This document shows, one piece after another, positions 5,553 through 52,765 of a stretch of 64,000 bases of DNA. The DNA comes from Fimbriimonadaceae bacterium (GTDB lineage Bacteria; Armatimonadota; Fimbriimonadia; Fimbriimonadales; Fimbriimonadaceae): positions 2,202,605 through 2,266,604 of the forward strand of contig JAHBTE010000001.1 in the NCBI GenBank assembly GCA_019638675.1. The letters are read 5' to 3'. A program made the translations under genes and the position numbers. The notes beneath the pieces are model-generated. The model was not told the origin of the DNA and did not search any database. It saw only the letters and a list, made by a program, of their open reading frames with translations. The first letter of the stretch is position 1. Every line of letters begins with the position of its first letter.

Positions 5553-6044
5553 ATGGCTAACTTAGAAATCGCAACCGTAGGCGGTGGATGCTTTTGGGGG
5601 ATAGAAGACCTCTACCATAAGTTGCCTGGAGTCAAATCTGCAATCTCGGGCTATATGGGTGGGCATGTAGAAAACGTAACCTACCGCGAGGTCTGCACGG
5701 GACTGACAGGTCATGCGGAAGTCGTGCAAGTTACTTACGACCCTGAAGTGATCAGCTACCCTGAAATCCTTCACTACTTTTGGGAAATCCATAATCCGGT
5801 AACGCTCAACCGACAAGGGCCAGATATCGGTACTCAATACCGATCAGCCATCTTCACCCACTCACCGGAGCAGATGGAACAAGCAAAGGCGAGCAAAGAA
5901 TGGGCACAACAGTTTTTCCAGCATCCTATCGTCACTGAAATCACCGAGGCAAGTGCCTTTTATCCGGCTGAGGAATACCATCAAGAATATTTTTCGAAGA
6001 ATGGCGGGCACGGATGCCATATCCGACGACCAATCGGCAGATAA
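5553..6044 (+). CDS. msrA: Peptide-methionine (S)-S-oxide reductase
   Basis: A 163-aa enzyme that reduces methionine-S-sulfoxide in proteins, a cytoplasmic repair step after oxidative damage. The catalytic motif GGGCFWGIEDLY puts the nucleophilic Cys at position 13. Other MsrA landmarks follow: GYMGGHVENVTYREVCTGLTGHAE, the YFWEIHNPVTLNRQGPDIGTQYRSAIF stretch and the closing EEYHQEYFSKNGGHGCH, which contains a possible resolving Cys near the C-terminus. No MsrB domain is fused. It is monocistronic: TAGAAT at 5539-5544 sits 8 nt before the ATG and a strong terminator follows. Confidence 0.97.
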   Translation: MANLEIATVGGGCFWGIEDLYHKLPGVKSAISGYMGGHVENVTYREVCTGLTGHAEVVQVTYDPEVISYPEILHYFWEIHNPVTLNRQGPDIGTQYRSAIFTHSPEQMEQAKASKEWAQQFFQHPIVTEITEASAFYPAEEYHQEYFSKNGGHGCHIRRPIGR

Positions 6045-6077
6045 TTCTTGCTCGCTAATCGGCGCAATTGATAAAAG

Positions 6078-6104
6078 AAAACGGCACTAATCCTGCCGTT
6101 TTTT
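6078..6104 (+). terminator. Intrinsic terminator of msrA
   Basis: AAAACGGCA (6078-6086) pairs with TGCCGTTTT (6094-6102) around a 7-nt loop, and the arm runs into TTTTTT then CG. It separates msrA from the secretion operon. Confidence 0.85.
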
Positions 6105-6201
6105 CGTATCTACTTTGGGATAGACGTAGATTCAAAAGGACGTTTGGCTTTTTAGTGAACGGAATAGTCTCTTAACCGTCTCAACCAAAGTTGAATTATA
6201 G

Positions 6202-49632: not shown

Positions 49633-49709
49633 GGCGACGTAGCTCAGTTGGTTAGAGCGAACGGTTCATACCCGTTAGGTCCGCGGTTCAAGTCCGCGCG
49701 TCGCTACCA
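49633..49709 (+). tRNA. tRNA-Met (CAT), elongator type
   Basis: A 77-nt cloverleaf. Acceptor GGCGACG pairs with CGTCGCT (one G-U at 1-72), D-arm GCTC/GAGC, anticodon stem AACGG/CCGTT with loop TTCATAC (anticodon CAT at 49667-49669), T-arm CGCGG/CCGCG with loop TTCAAGT, and an encoded CCA. The paired 1-72 position argues against initiator tRNA, and the CGGTTCATACCCG anticodon arm is the same as in Bacillus elongator tRNA-Met; tRNA-Ile2 (CAU) is the less likely alternative. Confidence 0.95.
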
Positions 49710-49733: not shown

Positions 49734-49762
49734 TTGGTATCTGCACAAAGTGGTGCTACACT
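49734..49762 (+). promoter_or_regulatory. Promoter of the candidate small RNA
   Basis: TTGGTA (49734-49739) and TACACT (49757-49762) are separated by exactly 17 nt, in the gap after tRNA-Met. Expected start is about 49769. Confidence 0.55.
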
Positions 49763-49768
49763 CTTGAA

Positions 49769-49842
49769 GATCGTTCCTCCAAAAATGATCATCTCGTAAC
49801 CATAACTTGCCATTCATTGCCCCGACTATGTCGGGGCTTTTT
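49769..49842 (+). ncRNA. Candidate small RNA with exposed CCUCC loop
   Basis: The promoter above would give a transcript of about 75 nt ending at a strong terminator. The 5' part GATCGTT / AATGATC can fold with TTCCTCC exposed in the loop, a sequence complementary to Shine-Dalgarno motifs. No open reading frame of useful length lies inside. The alternative is that this is only the trailer of the tRNA transcript. Confidence 0.45.
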
Positions 49843-49845
49843 AAT
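49819..49845 (+). terminator. Intrinsic terminator, plus-strand
   Basis: GCCCCGAC (49819-49826) and GTCGGGGC (49830-49837) form a perfect 8-bp stem with loop TAT, followed by TTTTTAATTT. The U-run is only on the plus strand, so it serves the tRNA or small RNA rather than the minus-strand BNR gene that ends at 49853. Confidence 0.88.
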
Positions 49846-49852
49846 TTCTCAG

Positions 49853-52765
49853 TTACTTAATTTCTACATCTTGGCTGAAAGCGGCACCATCAACTTTCAA
49901 GACCAATTTGTATTCTCCTGCGGCAACGTATTGAGCGCGCTTTGAAGCGTAGGGATCATTCAACGCAGTTTTGGGATCGTTTGGATCACCAAATACTGGT
50001 GGTAACCCGGGCTGACCCGGTTTCAGTAGCAACGACAAGCCCATATAGTTCAGTCCATGGATTACGTCAACCTGTGACTGGACAACGGTTTTGCCATCTT
50101 GTGAAACGAGAGACAAGGTTCCTTTACCTTTCTTGGTTGTCCAGAATTCAGTTTCGACTCGGCGATCTCGAGGTTCAGGGTCGTTGAATGGTTGAGCCCT
50201 TTCAAATCCCCACGATGCACGACCAGTCGGTACATCCAGTTTGAAAGAATGGAACACTTCTGCTTCAATTTTTGGCGTTACCTGCCGGATTGGCTTGAGG
50301 CTGATCACCCAGACCGAGCGCGCGTGGCTTGCCACAACGATATCTTCCGCTTGGGTTTGAATTACCAAATCATGAACTGGAGTGTTCGGAATTCCTCCAC
50401 CAAGCGTGATCCAGCTTGCTCCGCGATCTCCCGACATATAAACTCCCATGTCGGTACCTACATAAAGAGTGTCCGGGTCTTTATCGTCTTCACGGATCGT
50501 GTTCACGCACTCAAAGGGTAGGTTCGCCGCAATTGATTTCCAACTTGCGCCATTGTCTTCGCTCACCCACACATACGGAGTCCAATCGTCTTGGCGGTAT
50601 CCGTTCTGCGTGCAGTAAACGCGCCCATCCTTGTGGCTACTAGCGACAATTCTCGTCACCCAACGGTTAACTGCCGGGGTAGCAATATCTTTCCAAGTCA
50701 GGCCCGAATCGGGTGTGTATTTAACGGTTCCATCGTCTGCGCCGACATAGAGCTGACCAAACCGAAACGGACTCTCATCCATGGTGGTCAACGTGCTGAA
50801 AGGCACGTCGCCGTTGGGCAGATTTTTCGTTAAGTCGCCACTGATCGCCGCGTACGTCTTGCCTTGGTCAAATGATCGGTGAACCCGCTGGCTACCTAGA
50901 TAAATGATGTCCGGGTGGTGTTTTGAAATGAGGATTGGGCTAATCCAGTTGTATCGCAGGGGATCTTCACCACGCACATCTCTTGCTCTGACGCTCCAAC
51001 GCTGATTAGTCAGCTGGTTTTGTGCGGAGTGCGCCCCAAACTGTGAAGCAGTGTAAACAATGTCGCCTCCGTTGCGAGGATCAACCGCAATTGCACTGCC
51101 GTCACCGCCGCCGATGGCCTTCCAGGCGTTGATATCCGTGATTCCAGGGCGATATGTGCTCGGCCCTCTAAGAGTTCCGTTGTCTTGCAGACCGCCATAG
51201 ATGTTGTAAGGCACTTTGGTGTCAACGCCGATGGTTGTGTATTGGCCAACCGAGACATTGTTCCACTGAGTCCAACTCTTACCTGCATCCCACGAAGCAT
51301 AAATGCCGCCATCGTTACCATTCAGCATGAAGCTCGAATTCTTGGGGTCAATGTAAAGCGCATGATGGTCTACATGGTTACTGGTGGCGATTGCGTTCCA
51401 ACTGCCGCCGTTATCCGTTGACTTCAAACAAAGCAATCCAAGCGTGTAAACCTCATTTGGTTTTGTCGGATGGACAACTGCTTCGTTCCAATAGTAGCCA
51501 CCGTGATTGCCCATATCTGGACGTGTTTTCTTCCAGGTTTTGCCTCCATCTCCGGTACGCCAAATTTCCGCATCATTCATGTCGGCATCAAATAACGAAG
51601 GATTTCTTTGAAGCATCAGTTCCGAAAGTTCTTTTAGGCTCATATCGCCAGCAATGAACTTCTTGACCACGTCTTCAACCTTTGTGCCCTCTGGCATATA
51701 GCTGCGAAGGAACGAAATCAAAGCCTTATCTTCAACTTTGCGAAGGGCTGTTTCAGTCATTCGGCGGAAGCGGTTGAAAGTGAGAACTCCGCTGTCGCGA
51801 TACTCGTCGTAGCTATCCGATTCCATGTCCGGGCCTTGGTTATCAATGAAGGCGTAAACAACATCCGGGTTACTTGGAGCCATCGCAAGCGACGTTCTTC
51901 CCATATCGGTTCCGCTTGGCAATCCTGGCAATTTCGACCAATTCTTACCGCCGTCAACCGATTTATAAACCGCACTTCCTGGCCCTGACTCAAGGAAGTT
52001 CCAAGCGCGTCGATCCCTTTCCCACATCGCGGCGTAGATGATATTGCTGTTGCGGGGATCAACCTCAACATCCATACAACCAGTGCGAGTGTCACCCTTG
52101 AGGATGCAAGTCCATGATTTGCCACCGTCGGTGGTGCGGTAAAGCCCACGTTCGCCTCCTTGACTATAAAGTGGCCCCAGCGAAGCAACATAGACTGTGT
52201 TGGGAGACTTCTTGTCGATCAAAACTTTGCCGATATGGTGGCTTTCTGGTAAACCCATGTTCTGCCAAGTCGCGCCCCCATCAGTTGATTTGAACACGCC
52301 AGTACCTGCGTAGCTTGTCCGTTGGCTGTTGGCCTCACCGCTCCCAATCCAAATAGTGCGACCGTCATCGGACATATCCATGTCCCCAATTCCATAAGTG
52401 CTTTGGTCATCAAAAAGGGGAGTCCACGATTGACCGAGTGAATCACTCACCCACAGCCCGCCGGTCGCATAAGCAACATAGATTTTTTGCGGCCCGGTTT
52501 GAGTGACGGCAATATCTACAACGCGACCTCCCTGAACCTCCGAGCCAACACTTCTCCATGGCACCTGCTGGAAAGGCGATTCCTTCAGCATCTGCATTCG
52601 CTTATTGAACGCATTGAGTCGCACCGAAGTCGGCATCGCCGTAACATCAGGCTTATGGAATCTGGTGAGTTCGTTGATCTTTGGCTCGCCAGGCCGAACC
52701 TGCATCGGGTGATCCTGTCCTTTCGCGAGTGAAGTCAACAAAAGAGCGGCTGCAAAAAATGCCAT
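49853..52765 (-). CDS. Secreted VPS10/BNR-repeat beta-propeller protein
   Basis: A 970-aa protein with a short signal peptide (MAFFAAALLLTSLAKGQDH). A ~40-residue lead segment precedes the VPWRSVGSEVQGGRVVDIA signature and Asp-box repeats: STDGGATW, TTDGGKSW, SVDGGKNW, TGDGGKTW, STDNGGSW, SWDAGKSW, SEDNGASW, SGDRGASW. Central GGLQDNGTL and the C-terminal VHDLVIQTQAEDIVVASHARSVW are shared with the paralogue at 1309, more closely than with that at 18801. A helical insertion near 325-375 (RRMTETALRKVEDKALISFLRSY) is not seen in the others. Function unknown; likely periplasmic or secreted. Confidence 0.86.
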   Translation of the reverse strand: MAFFAAALLLTSLAKGQDHPMQVRPGEPKINELTRFHKPDVTAMPTSVRLNAFNKRMQMLKESPFQQVPWRSVGSEVQGGRVVDIAVTQTGPQKIYVAYATGGLWVSDSLGQSWTPLFDDQSTYGIGDMDMSDDGRTIWIGSGEANSQRTSYAGTGVFKSTDGGATWQNMGLPESHHIGKVLIDKKSPNTVYVASLGPLYSQGGERGLYRTTDGGKSWTCILKGDTRTGCMDVEVDPRNSNIIYAAMWERDRRAWNFLESGPGSAVYKSVDGGKNWSKLPGLPSGTDMGRTSLAMAPSNPDVVYAFIDNQGPDMESDSYDEYRDSGVLTFNRFRRMTETALRKVEDKALISFLRSYMPEGTKVEDVVKKFIAGDMSLKELSELMLQRNPSLFDADMNDAEIWRTGDGGKTWKKTRPDMGNHGGYYWNEAVVHPTKPNEVYTLGLLCLKSTDNGGSWNAIATSNHVDHHALYIDPKNSSFMLNGNDGGIYASWDAGKSWTQWNNVSVGQYTTIGVDTKVPYNIYGGLQDNGTLRGPSTYRPGITDINAWKAIGGGDGSAIAVDPRNGGDIVYTASQFGAHSAQNQLTNQRWSVRARDVRGEDPLRYNWISPILISKHHPDIIYLGSQRVHRSFDQGKTYAAISGDLTKNLPNGDVPFSTLTTMDESPFRFGQLYVGADDGTVKYTPDSGLTWKDIATPAVNRWVTRIVASSHKDGRVYCTQNGYRQDDWTPYVWVSEDNGASWKSIAANLPFECVNTIREDDKDPDTLYVGTDMGVYMSGDRGASWITLGGGIPNTPVHDLVIQTQAEDIVVASHARSVWVISLKPIRQVTPKIEAEVFHSFKLDVPTGRASWGFERAQPFNDPEPRDRRVETEFWTTKKGKGTLSLVSQDGKTVVQSQVDVIHGLNYMGLSLLLKPGQPGLPPVFGDPNDPKTALNDPYASKRAQYVAAGEYKLVLKVDGAAFSQDVEIK

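Follow-up and report, generated by a model that had tools for sequence, protein, structure and literature searches.

A candidate anti-Shine-Dalgarno small RNA gene downstream of tRNA-Met in Fimbriimonadaceae, with a possible origin in the tRNA trailer

Introduction

Does the short gene-free interval downstream of a tRNA-Met gene in a Fimbriimonadaceae bacterium (genome size 2.85 Mb) encode a small RNA (sRNA) of its own, or is it only the tail of the tRNA transcript? A first-pass annotation of the surrounding 64,000 nucleotides, hereafter the window, had proposed from the letters alone that a promoter and a terminator define a ~75-nt RNA whose 5′ hairpin exposes UUCCUCC, a complement of Shine-Dalgarno (SD) sequences. 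We followed up this proposal by comparing the locus with related genomes, with known sRNA systems and with possible mRNA targets.

Results

The proposed unit was confirmed in the window. TTGGTA and TACACT are separated by 17 nt and followed by six bases and then by GATCGTTCCTCCAAAAATGATC from position 49769 on the plus strand, so that promoter, transcript and terminator together span 49734-49842 (Table 1), and no ORF of at least 60 aa lies in the interval that separates tRNA-Met, ending at 49709, from the stop codon of the convergent gene at 49853. The start was placed at the seventh base past the -10 box, its position in all copies described below, and the predicted transcript of 74 nt agrees well with the size first suggested. 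An own promoter, an intrinsic terminator, an intergenic position and the lack of an ORF are the features of a trans-encoded sRNA. From its anticodon stem, we read the tRNA as an elongator rather than an initiator; a terminator scan detected none in the stretch that leads from it to the sRNA promoter. The convergent gene ends 11 bases past the sRNA, and its 3′ transcript could overlap it.

Table 1. Coordinates of the features discussed (window positions unless another locus is named).
Feature	Position	Strand	Basis or remark
tRNA-Met (CAT), elongator-type by our reading	49633..49709	+	ARAGORN, Rfam RF00005; upstream neighbor of the sRNA
-35 box TTGGTA	49734..49739	+	Sequence; same TTGGTA in relocated G002 copy
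-10 box TACACT	49757..49762	+	TATACT or TATAAT in relatives, equally 6 nt before GATCG
Predicted small RNA, 74 nt, GAUCG...	49769..49842	+	Sequence; matches of covariance models (CM) R1 and R2
5′ hairpin GAUCGUU / AAUGAUC, 7 bp, loop CCUCCAAA	49769..49790	+	RNA fold; all standalone copies
UUCCUCC, putative anti-SD motif	49774..49780	+	Alignment of copies
UGCCAU, single-stranded linker motif	49808..49813	+	Invariant in every aligned copy, tRNA-fused included
Intrinsic terminator GCCCCGACTATGTCGGGGC-TTTTT	49819..49842	+	Terminator scan; hairpin 49819-49837, then TTTTT
Convergent gene, VPS10/BNR-repeat protein	49853-52765		Stop at 49853
Relocated sRNA copy	L112 (G002:C23) 6015-6196		yajQ-like gene alongside; terminator on each side
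93-aa membrane-like ORF	L171 1040-1332 (G000:C1:1563539)		11 nt of the sRNA complement the SD GGAGGAACGAU
fliD	L223 1501 (G000:C1:1960753)		10 nt of the sRNA complement the SD TTGGAGGAAC; match TTGGAGGAACTATG

The element folds to -22.8 kcal/mol (z = -4.25, with 0 of 200 shuffles as low), and z falls to -4.84 for the exact 74-nt transcript; the terminator accounts for part of these low scores. The exposure of UUCCUCC held in part: CCUCC is unpaired in the predicted fold, but both U's are paired in the stem, and the loop proper is CCUCCAAA. The promoter matches the consensus at 8 of 12 positions and was not listed by a generic sigma-70 scan (threshold 9), and TTCCTCC is not enriched, as the window contains 5 occurrences where 9.1 would be expected. 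The evidence from the single sequence is therefore suggestive, and it is conservation across relatives that raises the element above chance.

Of the eight genomes in the genus, seven carry a single strong copy each (CM E-values 3e-20 to 1e-11). GATCGTTCCTC is invariant in all seven, with a -10 box (TACACT, TATACT or TATAAT) exactly six bases upstream, and every copy has a GATC-closed hairpin, CGTA within the linker, TGCCAT, and a terminator that is GC-rich and differs in stem sequence from one species to another. The first-pass annotation had staked its proposal on conservation of the promoter and the loop, and these seven genomes keep both, together with the linker motif and the terminator. 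There is variation in detail, as the stem of the 5′ hairpin is GAUCG/CGAUC in G004 and G002 and the loop of G007 is shorter (CCUCA). UUCCU is invariant in 8/8 aligned copies, and all except G008 (UUCCUUC) have UUCCUCC or UUCCUC. An anti-SD role, as first suggested, gains support from a UUCCUC(C) that persists down to the tRNA-fused homologues, and an unpaired, conserved CCUCC-type motif is what characterizes sRNAs of this kind. The same pattern is present in named records of Fimbriimonadaceae and Armatimonadetes MAGs and in genome Uphvl-Ar1.

To judge this conservation, we considered the adjoining M1-like peptidase gene, whose products share 47-55% aa identity and whose four-fold sites are 26-34% identical, which is near-random (both ranges leave out the near-identical close relative G003). 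From the -10 box through the terminator, 46/59 to 52/61 aligned bases are kept, which shows that the kept bases are under selection. In G002 and G006, the RNA is retained although other genes flank it there. Covariation, which had been suggested as a check, is slight: two terminator pairs are changed on both sides, but no such pair occurs in the 5′ hairpin. On this comparative evidence, we consider it very probable that the element is a real small-RNA gene.

In G002, the element has moved. Its copy has a TTGGTA-17-TATACT promoter, is preceded by one terminator and ends in another, and the gene downstream is yajQ-like according to our reading of its reading frame. The 12 kb of sequence surrounding the copy (about 6 kb each way) contain no tRNA, and the tRNA-Met gene of this genome, on another contig, is followed by unrelated sequence. 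Being remote from a tRNA, with its own promoter and insulated by an upstream terminator, this copy is an independent gene rather than a product of tRNA read-through. As far as sequence goes, it answers the concern, raised at the outset, that the signal at this locus might be tRNA read-through alone. Read-through from tRNA-Met may still add to the RNA in the window genome, as no terminator separates the two there.

Outside the standalone copies, a related sequence is fused to the tRNA. Model R1 was built from genus members alone, yet its best matches in three genomes from two other genera, G008, G071 and G022, are the sequences directly after the CCA of tRNA-Met (E = 3e-6, 1.6e-4 and 6e-4, with 31.4, 24.6 and 22.3 bits, respectively). 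As a control, 19 other tRNA-Met loci of the family from other genera (L092-L111 without L108) reached at best 9.5 bits. The three trailers have UUCCUYC, a CA-rich linker, UGCCAU and a terminator in common. They leave no space for a promoter between tRNA-Met and the homologous sequence, and the GAUC hairpin is absent from G008 and G022, while G071 has only a different short stem. Within the genus, G001 carries a weaker tRNA-fused version (11.6 bits), and in all four genomes the corresponding sequence starts immediately after CCA. In a tree of the M1-like peptidase, tentative because it represents one gene, the standalone copies form one clade with the tRNA-fused G001, G022 and G071 outside (support 0.933). 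Model R2 yielded no further credible members in 113 genomes of the order. BLAST-level matches outside the genus, obtained with the spacer plus element as query, were chance-like, and the other-genus R1 matches near E 0.003-1 were mostly terminators or coding DNA, the exceptions being the three tRNA-Met trailers; we set these aside.

We then considered which mRNAs the motif could address. In its own genome, GGAGGAA-N3-12-ATG sites number 47, compared with 17 in a reversed control, and by our reading of the translations they precede, among others, atpE-, flagellin-, argB-, ctaD- and rpmA-like genes. Sites with extended pairing showed no enrichment (6 vs 10 in the reversed control). The first-pass annotation had also remarked that many genes here use leaderless starts; by a crude count, an SD core of 4 nt or longer lies close to a start in 17 of the 46 ORFs of the window. 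When the sRNA was compared by RNAduplex with the initiation regions of the window, the duplexes were long, gapped and uninformative. The best extended match in the genome, GGAGGAACGATATG, precedes the 93-aa ORF, which lies between two PBP-type genes; we dropped it as a target, as a clear homologue was found in G003 only. The fliD match was dropped as well, being present only in G000 and G003 and gone from more distant genomes. Simple pattern searches for extended complementarity (GGAGGAACG..., TTGGAGGAA...) found no target conserved beyond G000 and G003.

Discussion

Taken together, we favor a standalone, trans-acting sRNA gene of ~74 nt that regulates through an anti-SD loop, a reading to which we assign a probability of roughly 65%. 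Polymerase would start at 49769 from the gene's own promoter, as the strictly conserved spacing suggests, and end at the terminator at 49842. The 5′ hairpin would then present CCUCC, and the linker UGCCAU, both single-stranded, while the terminal U-run would permit loading of Hfq, the gene for which is in the genome (PF17209, E = 2.5e-28). (UU)CCUCC would pair with GGAGG(AA) SD sites of several mRNAs and block ribosome binding; judging from the conservation of the motif, such pairing is the likely function. UGCCAU, which is the complement of AUGGCA (a start codon plus an Ala codon) and equals the anti-SD motif in conservation, could serve as a second seed. Our comparison shows that the gene structure is conserved, that the G002 copy is independent of the tRNA, that the trailers are homologous to the sRNA and that its sequence is under selection; we infer the expression of the sRNA, its binding to Hfq, its pairing with targets and the direction of regulation.

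A scan against Rfam 15, at the gathering cut-off and at E 10, returned tRNA alone, the next best being PsrR1 at 22.3 bits against a cut-off of 42. The sRNA represents a new and narrowly distributed family within a kind already known. Pairing of C-rich single-stranded motifs with SD regions is familiar from RsaE/RoxS of Firmicutes, which belong to another phylum and were unmatched in the Rfam scan even at E 10. In Sinorhizobium meliloti, NfeR1 of the alpha-r14 family silences mRNAs by occluding the ribosome binding site with its anti-SD motifs, which are unpaired in hairpins and conserved while the stems vary (PMC10746234). The likeness is in this arrangement. NfeR1 is alpha-proteobacterial and has three hairpins each with CCUCCUCCC, a structure that the window sRNA does not share, having a single hairpin with loop CCUCCAAA, the extra motif UGCCAU and no sequence relation that we could see. 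3′ETS-leuZ, an RNA from the 3′ end of a tRNA transcript that pairs with RyhB/RybB (PMC8166272), is matched in layout by the tRNA-fused forms of G008, G022 and G071. A 3′ETS is excised from its precursor and promoterless; the window sRNA is not of this type, given its conserved promoter and the standalone locus in G002, and its motif complements SD sequences instead of a named sRNA.

This second comparison bears on what we regard as the main rival to mRNA regulation, namely that the RNA acts as a decoy, or sponge, for some GGAGGAA-bearing RNA, another sRNA or a leader, as 3′ETS-leuZ is for RyhB/RybB (PMC8166272). An origin in a tRNA trailer would be shared with that RNA, and the lack of a conserved mRNA target in our pattern searches fits a decoy as well; however, the conserved motif complements SD cores, where GGAGG is most often found in mRNAs, and we consider this role unlikely. 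Somewhat less probable still is that the element is merely the 3′ trailer of tRNA-Met with its terminator, and has no role of its own. The tRNA indeed has no other terminator, the element lies directly downstream, and the counterpart begins right at the CCA end in G001, G008, G022 and G071, but such a trailer would require neither the insulated, tRNA-remote unit of G002 nor a -10 box at fixed spacing in seven genomes, and conservation of UUCCUCC and UGCCAU would not be expected of it where synonymous sites are saturated.

The close approach of the convergent VPS10/BNR-repeat gene, with the transcript overlap that it would allow, raises a cis role, either antisense to the 3′ end of that gene or as a leader or attenuator of a downstream gene. 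The RNA is nevertheless retained in G002 and G006 next to different neighbors, and a leader would have nothing to lead in the window, where the downstream neighbor is convergent, which makes a role in cis quite improbable. Finally, the ATG at 49785 opens a frame of 4 codons (ATGATCATCTCGTAA), and GGAGGAAC could precede an ORF on the minus strand. We give hardly any credence to a short coding gene, as G004 and G002 have no such ATG, G006 preserves neither the frame nor the stop, and G000 lacks a start codon with an open frame at the proper distance on the minus strand.

The preferred reading, a standalone trans-acting sRNA, leaves the question of where the gene came from. Its source was probably the 3′ trailer of the tRNA-Met transcript, where other genera keep a promoterless homologue. 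The distribution of the two forms suggests, as the parsimonious history, that the trailer came first, that promoter and hairpin were added later, and that a separate locus arose in G002; the reverse order, with the standalone sRNA preceding the fused trailer, may have occurred instead. We see about even odds that the birth of an sRNA gene can be traced here, in which a tRNA trailer bearing the anti-SD motif and terminator gained, within one clade, a promoter as well as a 5′ hairpin and, in one lineage, a locus of its own.

A limited full-text literature search on small RNAs returned no paper for Fimbriimonas and no relevant one for Armatimonadetes, nor did it yield RNA-seq data for this lineage. 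On this basis, the candidate would be the first of its kind in these groups, and it offers a defined start, loop and terminator for testing. If the proposed history is true, an sRNA whose synthesis was once tied to each tRNA-Met came under regulation of its own, and the series from fused trailer through tRNA-adjacent gene with its own promoter to relocated gene would be an unusually clear case of an sRNA arising from a tRNA transcript.
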